Part shown: positions 39-13,156 of the stretch, in pieces
How the letters are laid out: each line of letters opens with the position of its first letter
How positions within the stretch are numbered: the stretch's first letter is position 1
Assembly: GCA_017550655.1 (NCBI GenBank)
Contig: JAFZOK010000013.1
Location: forward strand, 124,001-188,000
DNA length: 64,000 nt
Source of the DNA: Bacteroidales bacterium
GTDB taxonomy: Bacteria > Bacteroidota > Bacteroidia > Bacteroidales > UBA932
Direction of reading: 5' to 3'
Program-made: the position numbers and the translations under genes
Notes under the pieces: generated by a model
What the model was told of the DNA's origin: nothing
Database searches by the model: none
Seen by the model: only the letters and a program-made list of their open reading frames with translations

Positions 39-3000
39 ATGCCATTGGATGCTTCTATAATCAAGGAAATAAAGAAAGAAAACGGCATCATTGTCCGTAC
101 ACCGGAACAATACAGGAGCATATACTTAGGAAGCCTTTTCATAATCCTGGCTGCGTGGCTGGCTGTATTCTTCTTTACCCTGAAGCTGGACAAAAAGAAA
201 GGGAAAACAAGCAACTATTCTATTATTGCGGCCGTAGCAGGCATCACATCTCTTGGCATCTTAACTCAATTCAGCATACCGGCACATCCTCTTCAGGACG
301 GTTTGAGGGCTGTGGAACAGCTTCTCAAGGGTTTATTGCCCGGAATTGGGCTCTTGATGCTGGCTTCCAGTATAGACTGGGCAGAGGTTTTCAAACGCAA
401 TAAAAAGGTTTACATAAAAGCATTTGGCGTTGACACGGCTCAGGGTATTTTGTTCGGTGCTTTTACGGTGATTACAGCTCTGCTGCTGCTATTCATAGGG
501 AGCGGTCCGGGTGGCGCCAAGGTCAATCTGTGGTTCTTTCAGGGCTCGCCAATCATAAAGTATTGTTTGGTTGGCTTCCTTGCAATATACCTGGCCAATA
601 GAATAGACACTATTCCTGCATTTGCTTCCAAAAACAACAATAAATACGATAGGAAACATCATCTAAAACTTATAGTTAAATTATGTGCTCTTGTTTGCCT
701 CCTGCTTGTTTTCCAGATTGTCTTTCTCGGCGATATGGGACCGGGTATCGTGCTCGCCCTGACAGCCATATGCCTTTACTCAACCTGCAGAAAAGACACT
801 CTGCCAATGATTTTTGGCACCCTGTCCTTTATCCTGATGTCTGTTCTTTGGAACTACATTATAGGCAATCACTGGACGCTGGCTTTGCCTCTGATCTGGG
901 GCTGTGGGTGGATAATCTACTGCCGTCATTTTAGAGGACAGATATATGAATCTGCCATTGTAGTAGTAATAGTTATCTCCGCCCTCATTTATGGGGGACA
1001 GTGGCTTGATTCTATAGGCCTTCATTCTATGGGAGAAAGACTGTCTGACAGAATAGAGATGTGGGACACCCCATTCTGCAACCACACACAGTCAGATCAG
1101 CTGGCACTGGCCATACAGGAATGTGCCGAGGGAGGCCTAACAGGTTCATCTACAAGCACGTCATACCTCGTCCCTGCATCGCACACAGATCTTGTTTGGC
1201 CTACATTCGTTTCTCACTTTGGAATCATTGGCGGAGCCGCTCTTATCTTCTTGTTTATTGTCCTGTTTTACAGCGGCTTAAAAATAGCAGTCAAATGCAA
1301 GACAGGATTCAGTTTTTATCTTGCCTCTGGCCTCATTTCCGTCATCGCAGTCCAGTGTCTTTTGATAACAGGCGGCACTATCGGACTCTGGCCCCTGACC
1401 GGAGTCAATATGTTCGGTTTGAGTTCCGGTTCTACAGATTTGGTTCTAAGTCTTGGGGCCGTTGGCGTTTTAATTAGTCTATCGCGTGAAAACTGTCCAG
1501 GCTATAACTGGAACGGGAAAAAGGATGCCGTAGAATCAAGGCTTCTGCTCTTTATGGTTTCTGTGCTTTTGTTGTTGACAATAATTACTGTTTCTTCCGT
1601 CTATAGCATATTCCTTAGAGACACCTATCTTACTAAATACACTATAGTACAGAAAAACAGCGGAGAAATTGCTGTAGAATACGCCCCGGCAATAGGAAAA
1701 TTCATCAAGAACAATCTGACAGCCGGAGAAATCTTTGACAGAGACGGCAACCCTCTAGCTTTGAACGGACCTCAGGGACGTATCTACCCCGCCGGTTCAA
1801 CCTGCTTCTTCTGGACTGGAGACATTAACACCCAGACCTTGTTTTCAAGAACAGACCGCTATACCGCCGGAGTACTTGCAGAGCCACGATGGCTCTCTTT
1901 TCTCCGCGGTTATGACAATCATCCCAAAAGAGTGATATTTGTTGCCGACAAGCTAAAGTCGCCTTATTTTCCAGACACTGATATATACAGAGAAGACACA
2001 GTTACCGTTTATGATTATAAGGAGGTTCTGCCATTCTACTATTCGCCGGAGAAGACTAAAGCGTTCAACGACTCAACCGCCGTAGCCAGCAGAAGCATAC
2101 ATCTCACTCTGGACAGCAAACTTCAGGAGGCTATAACGCTCTCTGCCGCAGACTTCTACGCCAATTGGACAGGCAGGGGCATCACTTCCAGAACAAGATT
2201 TTCCATTGTCGTGATTGATGCCGCTACAGGAGAGGTGCTTGCATCTCCTTGCTATCCGCAGGCAGACCAGAACAGGCTGAAGGCAATGGCAGAGGCTCAC
2301 ATCAATGTGTATCGCGATGATTCAGATATTCATTTCAAGGCTTTTCCGGATATGGACCTGGCGCTTTGCCACCCGACAAACCCGGGATCCATAATGAAAT
2401 TGTTCATTGCCGCAGCCGGCTTCAACAAAATTGGAGCCAGAATGGCAGAGCATAAAGAAACTGTCTATGACGCAGAAAAGATTTATGCCAAAGAGCCGAC
2501 CGGTACTGTCTCACTGCTTACGGCTCTTGTCAAATCAAGTGATATCTACTTTGTCAAATCTCTGAATGACCTTGACTTATTTAACGAAGCACTTAGACTC
2601 TACCGTGCCTGCGGTGTCTGCTTCAACGGCAAGCAGTCTTATTGCCTGTATTCTAACGTCTGCACCACCAATATCGATTCACTCAAAGCAGACCTTGCCC
2701 GCATTAGAGAGACAGGTTTAAGGAAATACAATAACTACTGCAACTCCCGCAAGCAGCGAAGACTCGTTGATTATGAATGGACTATGGCTTGGGGGCAGGG
2801 CCCTGTCAAAGCCTCGCCGATAGCCGTTGCCCGCCTGATTGGCGCAATTGTCAACAATGGAGTTCTTATGAAATCCAAATTCAACAGAGAAGAACCAGAT
2901 ACTGTCTTGGATACTCTCCTGACATCTCATAATGCAGAATTGCTGAGAAAGAATATGAAACCGCTTAGAAACGCCAAGATTAAAATCTGCGGAAAGACCG

Positions 3001-3221
3001 GCACATCAGAGCGTTACGACAGACTTTCTCCCAAAAGGAAAACAAACGACGCCTGGTACGGAGCCTATATAGACGGGAGCCTTAATCCAAAGACAGGACA
3101 TCCGCTCGCTGTTGTCGTAAGGTTTGAAAGAGTAAACGCAATGTCAACTTTAGCCGTCAATTATGTCGATAAATATTTGCTCGGCGTTTTGCAAAATCTC
3201 GGATATATGTCAAGTCTATAA
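39..3221 (+). CDS. SEDS (FtsW/RodA-like) glycosyltransferase fused to a penicillin-binding transpeptidase
   Basis: A single polypeptide of at least 1060 residues joins two peptidoglycan enzymes that are normally separate. The N-terminal half (about residues 25-490) has many hydrophobic segments and SEDS-type signatures: GDMGPG near 231-236 and an HTD followed by a Gly-rich segment near 382-400. After a last membrane segment near 505-530 comes a PBP-like transpeptidase with SxxK at S784-K787, SxD at S833-D835 (SxN is usual) and KTG at 986-988. It should polymerise and crosslink glycan strands at the inner membrane. The frame is open to the left edge of the window, so the ATG at 39 may be internal and the protein may extend further upstream. 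A kinase and an FHA protein follow within 20 bases or by overlap, suggesting phospho-regulation. The domain call is confident; the physiological role (growth, spore-like state, stress) is not known. Confidence 0.85.
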   Translation: MPLDASIIKEIKKENGIIVRTPEQYRSIYLGSLFIILAAWLAVFFFTLKLDKKKGKTSNYSIIAAVAGITSLGILTQFSIPAHPLQDGLRAVEQLLKGLLPGIGLLMLASSIDWAEVFKRNKKVYIKAFGVDTAQGILFGAFTVITALLLLFIGSGPGGAKVNLWFFQGSPIIKYCLVGFLAIYLANRIDTIPAFASKNNNKYDRKHHLKLIVKLCALVCLLLVFQIVFLGDMGPGIVLALTAICLYSTCRKDTLPMIFGTLSFILMSVLWNYIIGNHWTLALPLIWGCGWIIYCRHFRGQIYESAIVVVIVISALIYGGQWLDSIGLHSMGERLSDRIEMWDTPFCNHTQSDQLALAIQECAEGGLTGSSTSTSYLVPASHTDLVWPTFVSHFGIIGGAALIFLFIVLFYSGLKIAVKCKTGFSFYLASGLISVIAVQCLLITGGTIGLWPLTGVNMFGLSSGSTDLVLSLGAVGVLISLSRENCPGYNWNGKKDAVESRLLLFMVSVLLLLTIITVSSVYSIFLRDTYLTKYTIVQKNSGEIAVEYAPAIGKFIKNNLTAGEIFDRDGNPLALNGPQGRIYPAGSTCFFWTGDINTQTLFSRTDRYTAGVLAEPRWLSFLRGYDNHPKRVIFVADKLKSPYFPDTDIYREDTVTVYDYKEVLPFYYSPEKTKAFNDSTAVASRSIHLTLDSKLQEAITLSAADFYANWTGRGITSRTRFSIVVIDAATGEVLASPCYPQADQNRLKAMAEAHINVYRDDSDIHFKAFPDMDLALCHPTNPGSIMKLFIAAAGFNKIGARMAEHKETVYDAEKIYAKEPTGTVSLLTALVKSSDIYFVKSLNDLDLFNEALRLYRACGVCFNGKQSYCLYSNVCTTNIDSLKADLARIRETGLRKYNNYCNSRKQRRLVDYEWTMAWGQGPVKASPIAVARLIGAIVNNGVLMKSKFNREEPDTVLDTLLTSHNAELLRKNMKPLRNAKIKICGKTGTSERYDRLSPKRKTNDAWYGAYIDGSLNPKTGHPLAVVVRFERVNAMSTLAVNYVDKYLLGVLQNLGYMSSL

Positions 3222-3240
3222 TAGCGTAAAGGAACTAAAT

Positions 3241-4281
3241 ATGAATGAGATTTTGCTAGACCTGAACAAACAGTCTTTAACCTTCATAGGAGACAGTAAA
3301 GACAACTGGTTTATTGTCAGAGACGGTTGCTGGAGTTATAAGTTATTCCAGATGACTTGCCATAAAGCCTTTGAGAAAGAGAGAAGCATTCTAGAAGATA
3401 TTCAGGAATGCCCCCACCTCTGCCATATAAATTCTTGGGGTAAGGCCGTACGCGGCAATACATACTACCGCTGCATCAAAATGCAATGGTACGGCAACAA
3501 TGGAGCCGATTCATTGCTTAACCCCACATCACCGGTAGCCATTTCAGCCAACACGCTGTCTCAAAAGAATTTAACAAACCTGGCCAAAAAGCTTCTTGCC
3601 CCATTCATTGAACTTGAGGCCAAAGGCTACAGGCACAACGATATTGCACCCGAAAATCTCATCCAGAAAGAAGACTCCAGCTTTGTTCTTATCGATTTCG
3701 GTTCTGCCGTCAAACTTGAAGAAATCAAAAAAAGAGAAATCAGGCCCTCTGATATCCAGGGGCACAAAAACTTCTGCGCACCTGAGAAACAAGACGGCAG
3801 CATTACGGAAAGTTCAGACATCTATTCCTTTGGAATAATTCTCAAGATGATTGCAGCACGCGCCAAAAGCCTTGGAATAGATTGTTCTGAAGATTATCTG
3901 GCCATCGTTCATAAATGTATTGAATTCAAGCCCGATGCCAGATACCAGTCTTTCCGGGAAATAGAAGAAGCCCTGAACAATCTCCACTTTAACGTAGAGC
4001 CCCAAGACTTGGCCAATCCCGAAAAGCCTGCTCCGGCAATGGCTCCGGCAAAGATGCCGCCGAGGCCAAGACACAAGCAACTGGCCCTAAAATCTTTTGC
4101 CGTGGCGGCATTTGTGGCAGCCATTTCATTCTTGGCTATGGAAGTATATCTTACATATTTCAGGACATACGGAGATACTCCTACAGAAAAAGAAGCGGTC
4201 TTGAACCGTTCCATTTTCACAGACATAAAACTAACAGTATTAGACATAAAAAAAGCAAGCAACTATGAAGACAACCGCTAA
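3241..4281 (+). CDS. Membrane-anchored eukaryotic-like Ser/Thr protein kinase
   Basis: This 346-aa protein carries a kinase fold: a candidate ATP lysine at K34, a catalytic loop reading HND at 132-134 (HRD in most kinases) with N139, the DFG metal motif at 152-154 and APE at 180-182. The glycine-rich loop is poorly conserved. A Pro/Ala/Lys linker leads to one transmembrane helix at about 283-305 and a short tail of about 40 residues, so topology should be cytoplasmic kinase and short periplasmic end. The ATG at 3241 is chosen because it follows the SEDS-PBP stop by 19 bases with a purine-rich AAAGGAAC before it; a longer reading frame begins inside the upstream gene. It overlaps the FHA gene by 17 bases. 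Likely substrates are neighbouring proteins such as the FHA protein or the SEDS-PBP, which is inference. Confidence 0.85.
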   Translation: MNEILLDLNKQSLTFIGDSKDNWFIVRDGCWSYKLFQMTCHKAFEKERSILEDIQECPHLCHINSWGKAVRGNTYYRCIKMQWYGNNGADSLLNPTSPVAISANTLSQKNLTNLAKKLLAPFIELEAKGYRHNDIAPENLIQKEDSSFVLIDFGSAVKLEEIKKREIRPSDIQGHKNFCAPEKQDGSITESSDIYSFGIILKMIAARAKSLGIDCSEDYLAIVHKCIEFKPDARYQSFREIEEALNNLHFNVEPQDLANPEKPAPAMAPAKMPPRPRHKQLALKSFAVAAFVAAISFLAMEVYLTYFRTYGDTPTEKEAVLNRSIFTDIKLTVLDIKKASNYEDNR

Positions 4282-5017
4282 AACAAGAACAGGCCTTTTG
4301 CGCTTTATCAAAGTTATGATCCGGACTATGCTAGGACTAGAATCAGAACTGGAGCCCAACAGCAAGATAGGATTTTGCAACGCTATCGTTGAGGATATTA
4401 TAAATAAGCTTGGAGACCTGGTTTCAAACTCGGATTCAGTCTGTTTCTACACAGATGACTCTACGGCCGGAAACTTTTTGAACAGCATAGAGGGCCACAA
4501 CCTTCTTTCTTCCCAGCTGACAAGCAAGAACTTGGCGGAACTGTTGCCTCTTGCGGAGGGCATAAGCTGCGGCCAGGTTTTCGTACGCCCCTTGTCTGAA
4601 GCACCTAAAGACACAGAAGTTCGCAGCGTAAATAATCTGGATCTTCCCGTTCTTTACAAACTCTTCACACAAACTTGCAACACAGACTGCAAAATAACAA
4701 TTGAAGGTCAAGAGCCGTTTTATCTATCGGAGAAAAAGTCTATAAATGGTATTTATCCCTTTGGCAGGGAGGATAAGGAAAAGCCATTGCGGACCAATAG
4801 TTTTACACTGCCTTCAGACTGGAAAAACGTATCTCGCGCTCAAGGTATCATCTATCCCAAGAAAGGCCGATGGTTTATAAAGGGGCAAAACAGGCCCAAG
4901 ATGAACATCAATGGAGAACCCTTAGATATAGGTATAGGCAATGAGAAAGAGCTTGCAGGCAGCGGAACCATTGAAATCGGAACAACGCTCTTCAAGTACA
5001 GCATAGAAAGCAAATGA
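4265..5017 (+). CDS. Protein with degenerate C-terminal FHA domain
   Basis: The 250-aa product has no recognisable N-terminal family, but residues about 160-250 follow the FHA pattern: GR at 167-168, SRAQ at 190-193 where FHA domains have SRRH, NING at 214-217 matching the N-G strand turn, and a final GSGTIEIG strand like the usual L-x-GD-x-I-x-hG. The phosphothreonine-contacting His is replaced by Gln, so binding may be altered. FHA domains bind phosphothreonine, and this gene overlaps the kinase gene by 17 bases, so it probably reads out kinase activity. The N-terminal 150 residues are helical and acidic with no clear motif. The FHA assignment rests on pattern only; a structure prediction would settle it. 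Confidence 0.6.
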   Translation: MKTTAKTRTGLLRFIKVMIRTMLGLESELEPNSKIGFCNAIVEDIINKLGDLVSNSDSVCFYTDDSTAGNFLNSIEGHNLLSSQLTSKNLAELLPLAEGISCGQVFVRPLSEAPKDTEVRSVNNLDLPVLYKLFTQTCNTDCKITIEGQEPFYLSEKKSINGIYPFGREDKEKPLRTNSFTLPSDWKNVSRAQGIIYPKKGRWFIKGQNRPKMNINGEPLDIGIGNEKELAGSGTIEIGTTLFKYSIESK

Positions 5018-5036
5018 CAACACTTAACAGACAATC

Positions 5037-5843
5037 ATGACAAGAACTAATTTCATCAATTCTACCAAGAATCTCCTTAAGGCAACAAATGAATACTGCT
5101 CAAAACATTATAGAAGACTTGACGATATAGTCCGCTCAATGTTCTTCCTTATGCAAGACATCAGAACCTTTCTGGCGGCATCAGAAAGTGAAATGCAAGA
5201 CAACAAAAATATCCTGAAGCCTGTCAAGCAGACTTTAGCCATCGTTGACAAGAAAATCAAGAGGCTTGGCTGCGGCAAGAAGCCCACTAAAGGACAAAAG
5301 GCGCTTCTCGTCTTGCTGTCATTGTTTCAATACATACCCGGCATCAACAACGACAATCGTGACTGGAATTTTTTAAGACAAACGAGTGACATTATGCTTC
5401 CCCTGGTTTGGAAAAAACTCAAGCAGTTTCAACCAACGACCGGCCAAACATCTTATGCCAAAGCAATGCTGGGCCTGGTGGCATACGACTTATTGCGCAC
5501 GTTTGACGACAATCCGGAGGAATTCCAGACAGAAGAAAACCTATGCGAGTTCTCCATCCGAATGCTCTGTAACAACGATTGCCTAAAAGAAGACATATCT
5601 ACCCTGGGTGTGTTGTTTCTGATAAGATCCTATCAGCATCTGAAAAGGTCTGAATTAGAATATGAGGACAGTAAAAACTCACTGAACGAATCAAAAAAAC
5701 ATTTAACAGACCAGCAGGCAAAAGAATACCATATAGATGAATTATTAGGAAGAATGTATGACCAAGACAATAAATTAGAGTATATATTCTACCCCTTAGC
5801 CACTCCAAACCCCGAACAAAAAGATGCTTCTTTATACTCATAA
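5037..5843 (+). CDS. Unknown protein, paralogue of the gene at 6796
   Basis: I do not recognise a family. The 268-aa product has no signal peptide or transmembrane helix and appears mostly alpha-helical and basic. It shares extended similarity with the 234-aa protein at 6796-7500: both have NEYCSK near residue 16-20, PTKGQKA near 83-90, LSLFQYIP near 95-102, KAMLGL near 141, and end in a similar Leu-rich helix. At DNA level 25 bases starting at 5082 are identical to those at 6832, so the duplication is fairly recent or under constraint. It begins 19 bases after the FHA gene, so it is probably co-transcribed with the SEDS-PBP/kinase/FHA set. The last 20 residues differ from the paralogue. Confidence 0.75.
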   Translation: MTRTNFINSTKNLLKATNEYCSKHYRRLDDIVRSMFFLMQDIRTFLAASESEMQDNKNILKPVKQTLAIVDKKIKRLGCGKKPTKGQKALLVLLSLFQYIPGINNDNRDWNFLRQTSDIMLPLVWKKLKQFQPTTGQTSYAKAMLGLVAYDLLRTFDDNPEEFQTEENLCEFSIRMLCNNDCLKEDISTLGVLFLIRSYQHLKRSELEYEDSKNSLNESKKHLTDQQAKEYHIDELLGRMYDQDNKLEYIFYPLATPNPEQKDASLYS

Positions 5844-6052: not shown

Positions 6053-6772
6053 ATGAAACAGCAGATTAACTCAGCAGATGAAAAAATGATTATTGATGTG
6101 GCCAAATATCTTCTTAACGACAAAAGAATAATGGGCTTGCTTTCAAAGCTCAATGCAAGCCCATCAGACTATGTGTCAGGAACTTGGATGAAGATAAAAG
6201 ACATTGACTTTTCTTCTGTCAATAGCCCGAAGGCATACATTAGAAGAACAATGATCAATCTCATCTATGATGATGCTGCAAAGGAGGGAATCCTCCAGCC
6301 CAAAAAACGTCCAAATCGTATCCCCTACGCTAGTAAGATCTTCATAGACGATGGTTTTGAAGATCTTGATGATGACAGCGCCAAGTCAAAGCAAACAAAA
6401 TCGGACAACATGCTTTCAACCACCGACGACTATGCTGTTGACAGAACTGATACGGATAGAATTATTGAAAACGCCATCGGTTATTATGCCCCTGGAGATT
6501 TGTACATAAAGATATCGAAGGTCCTTGTGAGGAGAAAGGGGTTTAATTCACAGCTTTGGCTGACAGCGGTGTTGGCGGAACTGAACGGCACAGGCATTGG
6601 AAAGGCTATTGCAGATTATGCCAGCACTCATCCGCTTGACAGTCTATCCAAAATATCAAGCATATTCTACAGGAACAGAAACAAGGTAGAGGAAAAAGGT
6701 CTTACAGCAGATGAAAGATATGATTTGTTGAACGACTTGAAGTGCTCCTATCCCGTCCAGCCGGGCAAATAA
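6053..6772 (+). CDS. Putative sigma-factor-like / helix-turn-helix regulatory protein
   Basis: The 239-aa product is not a clear member of any family I can name. Residues about 58-80 (SPKAYIRR followed by a Leu-Ile-Tyr-Asp helix and a basic stretch) resemble region 2 of ECF sigma factors, where an Ala-Tyr/Trp-Leu/Ile motif precedes an Asn and an Arg/Lys-rich helix. A low-complexity acidic linker (about 100-135) separates this from a second helical half in which a canonical region 4 is not obvious. It has its own promoter and is followed after 23 bases by the second paralogue. A role in switching on this module is inference from position and weak similarity. Confidence 0.45.
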   Translation: MKQQINSADEKMIIDVAKYLLNDKRIMGLLSKLNASPSDYVSGTWMKIKDIDFSSVNSPKAYIRRTMINLIYDDAAKEGILQPKKRPNRIPYASKIFIDDGFEDLDDDSAKSKQTKSDNMLSTTDDYAVDRTDTDRIIENAIGYYAPGDLYIKISKVLVRRKGFNSQLWLTAVLAELNGTGIGKAIADYASTHPLDSLSKISSIFYRNRNKVEEKGLTADERYDLLNDLKCSYPVQPGK

Positions 6773-6795
6773 ATCAAAATCAAATAGTTGCCGCT

Positions 6796-7500
6796 ATGAC
6801 TATCAATGATTCCATAGAAAAGCTCCTTCTTGCAACAAATGAATACTGCTCAAAACGTTACAGGAGAGCCGACGCTATGGTACGCCAGATTTTCTTTCTT
6901 TTTATGGGCATAAGAACCTTTTTGGGAAGAACAGAAAACGAATGGACGGCATACAAAGATTTATTGCTGCCCGTCAAGCGCACTTTAGCCAAAACAGAGA
7001 AAAGAATTATGAATCTCGGCATCCGCAAGGCTCCCACAAAAGGACAAAAAGCCATTCGCTTGATGTTGAGTCTGTTCCAGTATATTCCGTGCATTAATGC
7101 CAGAAATTGGGAAACCCTGAAAGAATCCAGCGCATCCGGCCTTCCGGCCATTTGGGAAAGATTCAAGCATCTAAGACTGACAACTTACCAGACATATTAT
7201 GTCAAAGCCATGCTCGGACTGCTTGCCCATCTGCTTTTATTATCTCCTGATGACAATCCTGACAGTTTTTATAAAAAGGAAAAACTGTGCGATTTTTCCA
7301 TTCAAATGCTGGATGACAGTCCTTTCTCAGATAACGACACTTTTGGAACACTGCTCTTCATACGGGCGAAACTGCATCATCACAGGATTCAAAGAGAATT
7401 TGAGGCTTGCAAGAATTCACTGGTTAAGTCAAAAAAGTATTTGTCCGAGCAGATGGTTCAATATTATGAAATTGACAAGCTCCTTGACAATATGAAATAA
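6796..7500 (+). CDS. Unknown protein, paralogue of the gene at 5037
   Basis: A 234-aa soluble, helical, basic protein of unrecognised family. It aligns with the product at 5037-5843 along its length, sharing NEYCSK, IRTFL, PVK-TLA, PTKGQKA and LSLFQYIP blocks and the C-terminal helix. The ATG at 6796 is preferred over one at 6742 because the latter lies inside the upstream gene and would add 18 residues absent from the paralogue. The gene follows the sigma-like gene by 23 bases and precedes the 422-aa unknown by 36 bases, so it is probably part of the second transcription unit of the module. Confidence 0.75.
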   Translation: MTINDSIEKLLLATNEYCSKRYRRADAMVRQIFFLFMGIRTFLGRTENEWTAYKDLLLPVKRTLAKTEKRIMNLGIRKAPTKGQKAIRLMLSLFQYIPCINARNWETLKESSASGLPAIWERFKHLRLTTYQTYYVKAMLGLLAHLLLLSPDDNPDSFYKKEKLCDFSIQMLDDSPFSDNDTFGTLLFIRAKLHHHRIQREFEACKNSLVKSKKYLSEQMVQYYEIDKLLDNMK

Positions 7501-8872: not shown

Positions 8873-9502
8873 GTGAACGTAAAGAAGCATATATATAATG
8901 AATTTGCCGCCGGTTGTGCAAGGGTAAACGGCGGGTGCGTCGCTTATCACGGCGCTCTGCAATACTATGCCCTTCATACCCAGCAGTTCAACACAATTTA
9001 CCTGCATTCGGCCAAGCGCTTCCGCCCATTTGTCATCAACGGTGTTGCTTATGAATACCATCCGCTCAAGTTCACCTACAATATGGTTATCAGCAAGGAC
9101 CCAGACGGCAACCCATTTGCCGTAACCTCTCTCTCTCAGACAATTGTTGACTGCATCCGGCACATAGATTTAGCCGGCGGTTTGGAAGAATTGCTATATG
9201 CACTCTCCTCCATTTCCTGCGGACAGTTAAAGGAAAAAGACCTCCTTGTCTGCCTGGAAGCCTACGACAACGCATCTCTTTGGAGCAGGACAGGTTATCT
9301 TCTTTCTCTTTTTCAAAGCACCAACGGCATTAGCCAGCGCTTTCTGGACATCTGCCGCATCAAAGGCAGTGGCGTTAAAAACAAGATTGCCAGTTTCAAT
9401 AACGCCTTGGAGTATATATCCCAATGGAATTTATTTGTGCCTAAAAATCTGGGCAATATGATTACAAAAGGAACTGAATATGGGAACCAGGTCATATACT
9501 AA
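8873..9502 (+). CDS. abiEi: AbiEi-like antitoxin/regulator of a type IV toxin-antitoxin pair
   Basis: The 209-aa product resembles the C-terminal part of AbiEi proteins: a GG(C/I)xA-x-H/S-A-L pattern near residues 20-30 (GGCVAYHGAL), a beta-rich middle with YEYHPL, and a TSLSQTIVDC segment typical of the family. The usual N-terminal winged-helix appears short or missing. I place the start at the GTG at 8873, which coincides with the predicted transcription start; a TTG at 8858 in frame lies inside the promoter. The stop overlaps the downstream toxin gene by 23 bases. In known AbiE systems this partner represses the operon and neutralises the nucleotidyltransferase, giving phage-triggered abortive infection. 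Confidence 0.75.
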   Translation: MNVKKHIYNEFAAGCARVNGGCVAYHGALQYYALHTQQFNTIYLHSAKRFRPFVINGVAYEYHPLKFTYNMVISKDPDGNPFAVTSLSQTIVDCIRHIDLAGGLEELLYALSSISCGQLKEKDLLVCLEAYDNASLWSRTGYLLSLFQSTNGISQRFLDICRIKGSGVKNKIASFNNALEYISQWNLFVPKNLGNMITKGTEYGNQVIY

Positions 9503-10439
9503 AACAGAACTGAGCTCACTGATGGAGGCCACCGGTTATCCAATGGCTTCCATTGAGAAGACAATGCGCCTTCTTGATTTGCTCAAAGCTATTAATTCAA
9601 ACACCTTTTTGGGCGAAAACCTAGCATTAAAGGGCGGTACTGCTATCAATATCATCCACTATAGTGAAATCCCCAGGCTCAGTGTTGATTTAGATTTTGA
9701 TCTTGCCAGGAACACTCCTAAGGAGGAAATGCTGCAAGTTAAAGATGAGGTCTCTTCTCGAATCCGAGAGCTTACCGCTTCGTTAGGCTATTTCCTAAAT
9801 GACCCACGCCCTAACTACGCTATCCATCAGACGGAATTATTCTACCAAAGTGCAACAGGAAGCAGAGATAAAATCAAGCTGGATATCAACTGCCTGTCCC
9901 GCTGCCATATATTTGAGCCCGTTGTGCGGAAAGCTAAGAATCCCTTCCTTCCAGAAGACGTATTCCCTGTTAGAATGCTCTCCGAATATGAACTTTTCGG
10001 CGCCAAACTGAAAGCTCTGCTGGAGCGGAATACTCCCAGAGACATTTTTGATGCCTATACACTAGAACAGAAGGGATTATATCAAGATGAGGGCTCAATT
10101 GCATTAATACGCAAATGCTTAGCCTATTATCTTTCTCTGACCAGAGGCGTTGATATTGAAAAGGCTCTTGAAGCTATCCGAAACCGGCCCGTCCAAGACT
10201 TTAAGAAACAGTTGTTCCCAGTTCTGAAAACCGGATATGGCTTTGTGAACTGCAGCCTGATGTCATCAGAAGCCGTTAAAGGCGTTTCCCGCTTCCTGTC
10301 TTTCACAGAGAACGAGAACGCCTATCTGGAAGCTGCAAAATCAGGAACATACAATCCTAATCTCCTCTTCGATGACGCATTAGCAGAACGAGTCTCCGAT
10401 AATCCGGCTGCAAAGTTCTATATCACAAATGGCGCTTAA
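9480..10439 (+). CDS. abiEii: AbiEii/AbiGii nucleotidyltransferase toxin
   Basis: The 319-aa protein shows the DNA-polymerase-beta-like nucleotidyltransferase signature of AbiEii: KGGTAIN near residue 52-58, RLSVDLDFDL near 67-76 with the metal-binding acids, KLDIN near 132, and the family segment with GAKL, ALLERNTPRDIFD near 180-200. Members transfer nucleotides, reported for some relatives to be onto tRNA 3' ends, to stop growth after phage infection. It overlaps abiEi by 23 bases and should be translationally coupled. The protein looks intact and full length. Confidence 0.88.
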   Translation: MGTRSYTKTELSSLMEATGYPMASIEKTMRLLDLLKAINSNTFLGENLALKGGTAINIIHYSEIPRLSVDLDFDLARNTPKEEMLQVKDEVSSRIRELTASLGYFLNDPRPNYAIHQTELFYQSATGSRDKIKLDINCLSRCHIFEPVVRKAKNPFLPEDVFPVRMLSEYELFGAKLKALLERNTPRDIFDAYTLEQKGLYQDEGSIALIRKCLAYYLSLTRGVDIEKALEAIRNRPVQDFKKQLFPVLKTGYGFVNCSLMSSEAVKGVSRFLSFTENENAYLEAAKSGTYNPNLLFDDALAERVSDNPAAKFYITNGA

Positions 10440-10833
10440 TTGCTCAGCGATTGCTGCCTCTTTATTCCATTCTGACAACAATTCTTCTTTGCTCTGAAAG
10501 CAAGAGTTTTTTAGTTGCCTATCCTACCCTCAGAGGACTTCTCCGGAAACAAAAAACTTTTTTCCTGCGAAACTGCAAATTCTAGCAAATTATTCTGTCT
10601 ATATGTGTAGATTCACCTTTAATATGTCAAAGTTTCCAAGAAAAGTTTGCAATAGACCCAAGTACCGCAATAAAGAAACAAGCATAAACTCTTTGTTTCG
10701 TGATAAACTATCCAAAGGATAGGGGCAATACAATTGCCCAATAGAAGCTAATTTCATTTATAATTATTCAAAGTCGTATTATAAATATTAATTATGACTT
10801 ATCGTGCATTATTTGTAAATTTGTATTTGATAT
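10440..10833. other. Noncoding AT-rich gap between abiEii and the RiPP precursor
   Basis: About 390 bases without a credible gene on either strand. The AT content rises toward the right end. No clear terminator follows abiEii. A weak promoter for the precursor peptide lies at the right boundary (10816-10823). Confidence 0.6.
10816..10823 (+). promoter_or_regulatory. Possible -7 promoter element for the precursor peptide
   Basis: TAAATTTG fits the TAnnTTTG -7 consensus. No TTTG is found at the expected -33 distance. The ATG at 10834 lies only about 10 bases downstream, so the message would have almost no leader. Confidence 0.4.
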
Positions 10834-11031
10834 ATGTTAACACCGAAAGGGGCATTTCTGCGAAGCCTTATGAGCAGAGTAATGAAAGTTATGCTTAAAA
10901 ATCATTCTGAGAATTTCAGCTCTTTTTTCTTTAAGAAAGCTGATTCGAAGCAGATTGTTTTGCCTAGCTCCGCTTGCCAAGGTGGCGGAGGGTGCTATCA
11001 GTGCAAATGTGCTCCAAGGAAGAAAGTCTAA
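10834..11031 (+). CDS. Candidate RiPP precursor peptide, Cys-rich C-terminus
   Basis: This 65-aa frame sits directly upstream of a radical SAM/SPASM gene. The N-terminal 45 residues are basic and could be a leader; the C-terminal part is a plausible core with Cys at 48, 54, 57 and 59 around a Gly-rich run (CQGGGGC then YQCKC), ending APRKKV. Cys residues next to Gly/small residues are typical of peptides given thioether or related crosslinks by radical SAM enzymes. Alternative starts are the Met at 13, 17 or 20 of this frame; no strong ribosome binding site decides. A hairpin with a T tract follows at 11041. I do not recognise a named precursor family, so the product class is open. Confidence 0.65.
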   Translation: MLTPKGAFLRSLMSRVMKVMLKNHSENFSSFFFKKADSKQIVLPSSACQGGGGCYQCKCAPRKKV

Positions 11032-11040
11032 CTAAATTAC

Positions 11041-11065
11041 GGGGAGGCTTTTCTCCCCTTTTTTT
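11041..11065 (+). terminator. Hairpin with T tract between precursor and radical SAM gene
   Basis: GGGGAG at 11041-11046 pairs with CTCCCC at 11053-11058 over a six-base loop and is followed by seven Ts (11059-11065). The radical SAM ATG is at 11069. It looks like an intrinsic terminator that is partly read through, giving more precursor than enzyme. Confidence 0.75.
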
Positions 11066-11068
11066 ATA

Positions 11069-12367
11069 ATGTACCATCTTAATCCTTTTATCCACATATT
11101 CAAGCGGAAAGGCAAAATTGCGCTATATAACGCGCTAACTCTCAGTACGTTATACTTAAAGAAGGCCGACTATGACAGCATCTCATTCTCTAACCCGGCG
11201 AAAGAGCTACTAGATAATGAGTTTGTAGTTGGCCCGGATTTCGATTCACTAAATTATCTATCAGAGCATAAACCTAAAGAACTAACAGACGAGCTCTCTG
11301 TTGCTTATTTTCTACTGACATCTGGATGTAACCTCCGTTGTCGGTATTGTTTCGTTGAGACTAGGATGAATAATCATAAGACATCAGTAATGTCAGAAGA
11401 AACGGCCGAGGCTGGACTTAGAATGCTTCAGATGAATATTCCAAAGGACGCCACTCTAGTATTTTATGGCGGAGAACCATTTCTCAATTTCTCCGTCATG
11501 CAGTATATTGTTAGAAGATGCCGAGAGTTGGAGTTAGATGCTCATTTTGTCGTAGTAACAAATGGGCTCTTAATCACTCCTGAAATAGCCTCCTATCTTG
11601 CGGACAACAAATTCGAAGTAGGAATAAGTCTGGATGGTGAAAAAGGCATAAACGATTCCATGCGAGTGGATTATGAGAACCAAGGTTCTTTTGACGAGAT
11701 TGAGAAAGCCATAACCATATTAATGGATAAGGGTATTGTCCCCAGTATTAGTTGCACTCTATCAAAGCATAATTGGGAGAATCCTGGGAATATCATAAAC
11801 TTAATCAAGAAATACCAACTTCCAGGCTTTGGATATAATCTGCCCGCAATAAATGGGAATATTCGATTCTCTAAGGAAGAACGCGCTATCTTGATTAAGC
11901 ATTTGATTGAGGCTGAAACCGAAGTGGTTAAGCATCGGTTAATAGAAGACAAAGTTGTGGACAGGAGGCTAAAATCCTTTGTGGAACACCATAGCTGGCT
12001 GAAAGATTGTGCTGCTTATGGGCAGCAATTTGTCATCACACCAAAGGGGAAAGTTGGTGTATGTCATGGATTATGGCCAGATGAAACAAATGGAGAATCT
12101 AAGACATACTACAGCGTGGATGTTACATATGATAAACCATTACGTGAACATCCAGATTGGAAAGAGTGGTTTAATAGAACACCATATAATATGCCTGAGT
12201 GTTGGTCCTGCCCTAGTATTGCACTATGTGGTGGTGGCTGTGCAAAGAACTCTCTTCTGACAAAATCCAATATCTGGAACAAAGACGAAGATATTTGTCA
12301 GCTAATGGAACAGCTCCTACCTTGGACAATTTGGACTTATTATGATTTAACTAAAAACGCATATTAG
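11069..12367 (+). CDS. Radical SAM/SPASM peptide maturase
   Basis: The 432-aa enzyme has the radical SAM cluster motif CxxxCxxC at C87, C91 and C94, followed by a GGEP motif near 134-137 that binds SAM in the family. The C-terminal region has SPASM-type cysteines at about C317, C378, C381, C387, C391 and C410, which should hold auxiliary iron-sulfur clusters. The N-terminal 70 residues may bind the leader of the precursor. SPASM enzymes of this size next to a Cys-rich small peptide usually install thioether, C-C or similar crosslinks. The start at 11069 has no ribosome binding site and sits 3 bases after the terminator T tract, consistent with low expression. No transporter or protease is seen next to it. 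Confidence 0.85.
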   Translation: MYHLNPFIHIFKRKGKIALYNALTLSTLYLKKADYDSISFSNPAKELLDNEFVVGPDFDSLNYLSEHKPKELTDELSVAYFLLTSGCNLRCRYCFVETRMNNHKTSVMSEETAEAGLRMLQMNIPKDATLVFYGGEPFLNFSVMQYIVRRCRELELDAHFVVVTNGLLITPEIASYLADNKFEVGISLDGEKGINDSMRVDYENQGSFDEIEKAITILMDKGIVPSISCTLSKHNWENPGNIINLIKKYQLPGFGYNLPAINGNIRFSKEERAILIKHLIEAETEVVKHRLIEDKVVDRRLKSFVEHHSWLKDCAAYGQQFVITPKGKVGVCHGLWPDETNGESKTYYSVDVTYDKPLREHPDWKEWFNRTPYNMPECWSCPSIALCGGGCAKNSLLTKSNIWNKDEDICQLMEQLLPWTIWTYYDLTKNAY

Positions 12368-12418
12368 TAGTTAGATGTAACAACTCATTATAAACATATA
12401 AAGAATTATTGAAGATAT

Positions 12419-13156
12419 ATGGCAAGGCTTGGAAGAGATTACGAAGATGACCCAACCCCATGGGGAGATTATGTTGTTTTTTCTGATGAAGGCAAGAGGC
12501 TCAGAAAGTTTCCAGACAACGATGATGGCCGGGCTCAAGCAGAAGCTTATTATCATGAGGTTCAGCAACTAGATAATCAGAAGAAAATAATCACTCAAAA
12601 CCAAGAAATTATCGAGGCCAATAAACGATCTCCCATTTATCGCACACCCGCCCCGTACATAGATCCAGAGTACCTTGAGTGGAAGAGGGTAAAGGAAAAA
12701 CGCCTCGCTCAAGAACAGGTGGAGAAGAAAAAGATAAGGAAAGTTCGTCGAGCTATAATCCCTGCTGGTTATGTTGATTTAGGGTTGCCAAGCGGGACCT
12801 TATGGAAAGCAACAAACGAAAGCGGTTTCTTTACATATAGTGAAGCCAAAAAACTTTTCGGCGAAAAACTGCCTTCAAAATCACAATGGGAAGAATTGAA
12901 AAATTCTTGTAGATGGGAATGGACGGAGGGCAGCTATAAAGTTATAGGGAAAGGAGGTCGTTATATTTTTCTTCCGGCTGCGGGCTGGCGCTACTCAGAC
13001 GGCAGTGTCAGCGGAGTGGGCTCCACTGGCCGCTATTGGTCTTCAACACCGAATGGCCCACTCTACGCCTGGATCCTCTACTTCAATTCTAGTGAAGTGC
13101 GCCTTTACGACCACGTCCGAAGCCTCGGTCGTTCCGTCCGAATAGTCATAGATTAA
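12419..13156 (+). CDS. Protein with C-terminal FISUMP / C-type-lectin-like domain
   Basis: The 245-aa product has no signal peptide. Residues 1-115 are charged and partly coiled coil (Gln/Glu/Lys-rich at about 45-110). From about 118 it follows the Bacteroidales version of the Fibrobacter succinogenes major domain: YVDLGLPSGTLW, LPSKSQWEEL, FLPAAGWR, GRYWSST and a final GRSVRIV. This fold is related to formylglycine-generating-enzyme/C-type lectins used as diversified targets in retroelements. The last 150 bases are more GC-rich than the first part of the gene and many codons in the terminal 40 residues end in C or T. It follows the radical SAM gene by 51 bases, so it may be a passenger of the same block; a role in peptide binding or export is speculative. 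Confidence 0.7.
   Translation: MARLGRDYEDDPTPWGDYVVFSDEGKRLRKFPDNDDGRAQAEAYYHEVQQLDNQKKIITQNQEIIEANKRSPIYRTPAPYIDPEYLEWKRVKEKRLAQEQVEKKKIRKVRRAIIPAGYVDLGLPSGTLWKATNESGFFTYSEAKKLFGEKLPSKSQWEELKNSCRWEWTEGSYKVIGKGGRYIFLPAAGWRYSDGSVSGVGSTGRYWSSTPNGPLYAWILYFNSSEVRLYDHVRSLGRSVRIVID

Follow-up and report, generated by a model that had tools for sequence, protein, structure and literature searches.

A candidate FibroRumin-like RiPP cassette of one Cys-rich peptide and one radical SAM/SPASM enzyme in a Bacteroidales genome

The stretch of 64,000 nucleotides of a Bacteroidales genome analysed here (the window) carries a gene for a small Cys-rich peptide directly followed by a gene for a radical SAM/SPASM enzyme, and this pair is best read, with a probability of about 0.72, as a minimal, divergent FibroRumin-type RiPP cassette. 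The cassette is most likely a distant relative of the named, little-studied FibroRumin family and not a new class; a FibroRumin-like mode of action is most likely, although the curated cut-offs do not admit the pair as a formal member. In the original prediction the class of the pair could not be named. It fits FibroRumin (TIGR04136/TIGR04135), but reaches neither of the two curated cut-offs.

Table 1. Features of the locus and their coordinates in the window
Feature	Position	Strand	Basis or remark
Candidate RiPP precursor, 65 aa	10834..11031	+	Leader start MLTPK, core SACQGGGGCYQCKCAPRKKV
Precursor Cys core, C48 to C59	10975..11010	+	C-x5-C-x2-C-x-C, direct sequence reading
Stem-loop GGGGAGGCTTTTCTCCCC then seven T, possible leaky terminator	11041..11065	+	Terminator-like site; folding z -3.4
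FibroRumin-like radical SAM/SPASM peptide maturase (432 aa)	11069..12367	+	TIGR04136 199.9 bits; PF04055 64.6 bits; tree
CxxxCxxC, radical SAM 4Fe-4S cluster, C87/C91/C94	11327..11350	+	Invariant in 20 aligned enzymes
SPASM region with its seven Cys, C314 to C410	12008..12298	+	Invariant in 20 aligned enzymes
FISUMP-like protein (245 aa), next gene 3' of the enzyme	12419-13156	+	TIGR02145 18.2 bits, cut-off 41.65

The two genes and the family of the enzyme

The small frame had been singled out for its four Cys around a Gly run and its position directly 5' of a radical SAM enzyme with no transporter or protease next to it; its coordinates and the composition of the locus were both confirmed. 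All four Cys (residues 48, 54, 57 and 59) lie inside the final 18 residues and flank four Gly, giving the C-terminal pattern C-QGGGG-C-YQ-C-K-C, and the peptide holds 12 K/R against 2 D/E. Both genes are on the + strand, separated by a gap of 37 nt. The ORF listing for 10440-11068 held no second Cys-rich ORF besides the 65-aa frame, and no double Gly was read in the sequence ahead of the core. A domain search of the window's genome yielded one C39 peptidase domain, located on another contig. A match of the peptide to nqrF in the family search (E 0.021) was judged to be due to chance.

The enzyme had been predicted to carry CxxxCxxC and several SPASM Cys, and three and seven Cys, respectively, were found. 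The latter occupy positions 314, 332, 378, 381, 387, 391 and 410, a spacing that we take to be that of a SPASM domain, and all ten cluster Cys were unchanged across 20 aligned enzymes, the window's included. Among 88 NCBIfam matches the top family was TIGR04136, the FibroRumin maturase, with 199.9 bits, where the curated cut-off is 400, and a lead of 73 bits over the second-best family. PapB (126.7 bits), CefB (115.2 bits), SCIFF (113.2 bits), nif11-type (110.5 bits) and quinohemoprotein maturase (107.5 bits) families followed and cyclophane maturases were also matched, the enzyme lying under every curated cut-off among the 25 of the 88 matched families that were shown. By cut-off the enzyme falls outside TIGR04136, since the enzymes of canonical loci scored 974.5, 954.8 and 707.4 bits. 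TIGR04136 was likewise the best family in all seven relatives of a first scoring and in all eight further FibroRumin-like relatives (204.7-349.4 bits), in each case below the cut-off; among the relatives scored, a set without two enzymes of locus L016, the window's enzyme had the lowest score. The best relative of solved structure was 5wgg (E 5e-24), presumably CteB. A profile comparison of the enzyme's N-terminus with those of other maturases, made with regard to an RRE, gave a probability of 46 (E 2e-4), which weakly suggests an RRE at this end of the enzyme.

A maximum-likelihood tree of 39 enzymes placed the window's enzyme inside 20 FibroRumin-like rows, split from the 19 others at 100/100. 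These 19 rows had been picked from 67 other maturases, not each classified, and some of them adjoin SCIFF-like peptides; the window's enzyme and that of L017 were restored after an enzyme filter had dropped them, and L141 was left out. The window's branch was long (2.0), had no supported sister and, according to a warning of the tree tool, meets another long branch, so that its placement may be wrong.

Peptides and hairpins beside related enzymes

Nineteen loci besides the window were read (L004-L010, L012-L020, L098, L099 and L141); L098 is a near-copy of L099, and L007 shares its genome with L010. A small ORF holding four or more Cys stood beside the enzyme in 15 of the 19, upstream in 14 loci and downstream in one (L017), and these homologous peptide/enzyme pairs lend good support to the RiPP pair of the original prediction. 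L016 and L018 showed a small ORF with three Cys beside the enzyme. No ORF of at least four Cys was found beside the enzyme outside larger ORFs in L008 and L009, the L009 screen being limited to ORFs of four or more Cys. The enzymes of these two loci, without a Cys-rich peptide, adjoin a radical SAM-like ORF of about 310 aa (CNEKCIFCPC / CNEKCVFCPC; L107, L108), a combination that is probably a different system.

It had also been expected that the core would be conserved and the leader variable, and this was only half borne out. Core Cys number and spacing differed widely among the relatives, and six of them (L005, L007, L010, L012, L015 and L019) keep a peptide start of the form M[LIFK]xP[KGN], resembling MLTPK of the window's peptide. 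This M-x-x-P start falls at an inner ATG in L005 and L012, and VLTPR occurs inside the ORF of L016. In many cores the first Cys are separated by Gly (CGGGC, CGSGC, CTGGGGGQAC; CQGGGGC in the window). An extra ORF near L010 (L105, 12655-12837) begins with MLIPN; in that neighbourhood (9298-12837) the L010 maturase is followed by an FHA protein, a kinase-PEGA-FGE fusion and this second FibroRumin-like ORF. With TIGR04135 (cut-off 45), four canonical peptides scored 54.9-93.2 bits and five of eight divergent ones 14.8-22.6 bits; such sub-cut-off matches are near noise, as control genomes matched in 6/14 cases at E up to 10 and in 3/14 at E 0.1. Neither the window's peptide, set against the same cut-off of 45 bits, nor the window's genome was matched by TIGR04135 at E up to 10.

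Intergenic stretches of ten loci were folded and compared with 200 dinucleotide shuffles each. Six of the ten reached z <= -2.7 (window -3.4, L004 -4.5, L007 -4.5, L012 -5.5, L015 -2.7 and L019 -3.9), and folding was weaker in L006 (-1.9), L016 (-1.6), L010 (-1.2) and L013 (+0.6). The L012 stretch included 24 nt of the enzyme gene, the L098 stretch, which lies inside the enzyme gene, was excluded, and the gap between peptide and enzyme is 5 nt or less in L005, L014 and L020. A terminator scan found 5 sites in the window's region versus 2.7 +/- 1.6 in shuffles. By eye, a T run after the stem was confined to the window, L004 and L010, indicating that the other hairpins may serve processing or stability and not termination. 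The hairpin of the window may be a leaky terminator which raises the precursor over the enzyme.

A profile of 12 relatives' peptides missed the window's peptide (2.7 bits, rank 313 of 9,884), so that its membership is based on position, start motif, Cys pattern and intergenic hairpin. On a start-anchored matrix of eight leaders the peptide ranked 20 of 27,505 starts and 8 of 9,382 first starts; its score was 3.2, against 36.7-45.5 for seven members used in building the matrix, and ten chance ORFs scored higher. The start motif alone occurred in 35 and the core pattern alone in 27 of 9,383 distinct small ORFs, and both together in five, i.e. the window's and four relatives', by patterns composed after the window's peptide had been seen. 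Of the small ORFs situated outside large ones, 2,606 were distinct, and 38 of these were Cys-dense. By reading, 15 of these 38 were FibroRumin-type precursors, the window's included, and 23, or about 0.9%, were background; a Cys-dense ORF alone is therefore not very rare, but one before such an enzyme is.

Unlikely, in our estimate, is the alternative that the FibroRumin-like maturase is real and the 65-aa ORF a chance frame, the true substrate being elsewhere or lost. The miss by the relatives' profile, the roughly 0.9% of background small ORFs that are equally Cys-dense, and L008 and L009 with no four-Cys peptide beside the enzyme would all fit a chance frame. Such a frame would, however, have to combine position, MLTPK start, Cys-Gly-Cys pattern and hairpin by coincidence; moreover, 10440-11068 offers no other Cys-rich ORF as substrate, and TIGR04135 matches nothing in the genome at E up to 10.

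Proposed chemistry and comparison with known systems

In the FibroRumin-type cassette proposed here, the 65-aa peptide would be the precursor and its basic N-terminal part (MLTPK...) the leader, which would be held by the enzyme, probably via the N-terminal domain of the latter. The enzyme, with two auxiliary SPASM clusters, would join Cys thiols in the core, CQGGGGCYQCKC, to carbons close by, each thioether bridge costing 2 H. Partial termination at the hairpin and T run between the genes would keep the precursor in excess. The leader may then be cleaved and the product exported by a system encoded elsewhere, or the peptide may be retained in the cell. According to two sources (PMC11002830, PMC8326336), PapB, CteB and QhpD form thioethers from Cys to a non-alpha carbon, and the known ranthipeptide acceptors are Asp, Glu, Asn and Thr. 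As these are the nearest characterised relatives, such a thioether is the first guess, and the precursor is probably thioether-bridged. None of these four acceptor residues is present in the window's core, which leaves room for other radical chemistry.

A RiPP pair with non-thioether chemistry (e.g. C-C/C-N links or epimerisation), or a metal-binding Cys peptide, that merely resembles FibroRumin would agree with the missing usual acceptors, with the cyclophane maturases among the enzyme's matches and with an enzyme that reaches the curated cut-off of none of the 25 families shown. We nevertheless hold it to be quite improbable, as Cys is the conserved core feature in the relatives and the next best characterised families (PapB, SCIFF and quinohemoprotein maturase) form thioethers (PMC11002830, PMC8326336).

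The divergent FibroRumin-type cassette shares with FibroRumin (TIGR04136/TIGR04135) a small Cys-rich peptide directly ahead of a radical SAM/SPASM enzyme and a core end C-x2-C-x-C, which reads CTGCKC in L098 and CYQCKC in the window. Unlike the canonical system, which has two precursors, the window has one, with four Cys and a Gly run, and it is without the UvrA-like ATPase that follows the enzyme in L100 and L141. The pair in L012, from a MAG titled Patescibacteria, resembles the window's in its start MLIPK, CTGGGGGQACKC and an intergenic hairpin, but has five Cys, and its enzyme reaches 279 bits on TIGR04136. Ranthipeptide maturases of the PapB, SCIFF/CteB and QhpD type are likewise radical SAM/SPASM enzymes using Cys thiols and are among the next best families; the window's enzyme, however, scores 126.7 bits against a cut-off of 340 for PapB (NF047865), 113.2 against 425 for SCIFF (TIGR03974) and 107.5 against 453 for the quinohemoprotein QhpD type. 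Its precursor shows neither the SCIFF nor the Cys-xxx-Asp pattern of ranthipeptides and has four Cys, versus six in about 45 residues in SCIFF. That the pair is a separate RiPP class, related to FibroRumin only through the general SPASM fold, would accord with scores below both FibroRumin cut-offs and with no accessory gene in common with the two FibroRumin loci in which the gene after the enzyme was inspected, but is highly improbable, as L012, L004 and L006 are intermediate in enzyme score (219-280 bits) and in peptide style.

In two canonical loci, L100 (5538-7673; a genome of the genus Ruminococcus) and L141 (6397-8490; a Campylobacter plasmid), two precursors and the maturase are followed by a gene for a UvrA-like ABC ATPase, which overlaps the maturase gene by 17 nt and 14 nt, respectively. 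These ATPases gave 339.7 (L100) and 311.8 bits (L141) on TIGR00630, under the cut-off, and possibly serve self-protection. Genes with similar starts were seen after the maturase in three Bacteroidota FibroRumin-like loci (L104 8926-9762, L103 8784-9692 and L019 6341-7180); two of the three, scanned with Pfam, showed a weak nucleoside deoxyribosyltransferase or CAP12/TIR likeness, below cut-offs.

A wider reading, which we consider unlikely, is that FibroRumin-like pairs form a broad, horizontally moving Cys/Gly peptide family, with the window as a new subtype that has a four-Cys Gly core and an undescribed bridge pattern. Such a family would have a common leader start and often an intergenic hairpin, and would exchange UvrA-like ATPase, deoxyribosyltransferase/TIR-like and FISUMP partners; the window's subtype would perhaps be used in competition or defence. 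Common leader start and intergenic hairpin are testable aids for locating more pairs. FibroRumin, TIGR04136, TIGR04135 and IPR026404 were not found mentioned in the literature searched, a limited collection, and the family may thus be unstudied at the bench. With one precursor, one enzyme and four Cys, the window's pair would be a convenient small substrate on which to elucidate the chemistry.

Distribution and genomic context

Among the matches listed, the enzyme of L012 was the closest, with 32% identity. The window's own genome was the only one with an enzyme match among 61 related genomes at E 1e-20, among 39 same-genus genomes at E 1e-45 and in a phylum sample of 395 genomes at E 1e-60; in an order sample, 7 of 393 genomes matched at E 1e-25, the window's own counted. 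An alignment-based scan of named genomes gave at least 540 confirmed relatives, and the best 80 of these (of at least 540) were kept. Canonical FibroRumin enzymes occurred in 2 of 29 genomes in the genus of the L034 genome, titled Ruminococcus albus, and also on a Campylobacter plasmid. A plasmid search returned 20 enzyme matches, with one annotated FibroRumin among the 8 of 20 listed, and a phage search four distant, unannotated ones. Single-sequence scans of genome contigs and viral contigs gave no confirmed relative of the enzyme, and an alignment-based search of viral contigs gave 12 distant matches, of which five were inspected. One of these five, the viral-collection locus L130 (3668-5368), has a Cys-rich 76-aa ORF (CYCPCEC) ahead of a radical SAM peptide maturase. 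This enzyme was rejected as a relative; it scores 323.6 bits on TIGR04148, above the cut-off of 300, and aligns with the window's enzyme over the radical SAM half only.

The cassette sits on a 782-kb contig, in a stretch with a GC content of 0.424 versus 0.499. In a comparison spanning 16-kb stretches, the flanking ribosomal protein gene was located in eleven same-genus genomes, five of which match the window only from about 13413 on, indicating that the cassette lies in a strain-variable stretch. Encoded in the same stretch are an AbiEi/AbiEii toxin-antitoxin pair, an FtsW-PBP fusion, a Ser/Thr kinase, a protein with a weak match to FHA and, immediately after the enzyme, the FISUMP-like protein.

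The part played in the cassette by the FISUMP-like gene is uncertain. Its protein aligns with two proteins encoded downstream of the L005 maturase (L103 9670-10977 and 11291-12949), with 37.5% identity over 104 aa and 49% over 61 aa, and two other FISUMP matches were found in the window's genome. A link of FISUMP, kinase and FHA genes with these loci was considered and is no more than noted here: FISUMP was seen downstream in the window and L103, and FHA with a kinase-FGE fusion in L105, but none in the other neighbourhoods listed, as judged mostly from ORF starts and without a control. At 39-5017 of the window, FtsW/RodA and a penicillin-binding transpeptidase are joined in one 1060-aa ORF, followed by the Ser/Thr kinase and the weak FHA-like ORF, an order resembling actinobacterial pbpA-rodA-pknB-fha. 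Two further ORFs of the window, 5037-5843 and 6742-7500, have similar starts (LLATNEYCSKRYRR / LKATNEYCSKHYRR) and no Pfam match, and are likely a duplicated family of no recognised Pfam domain.
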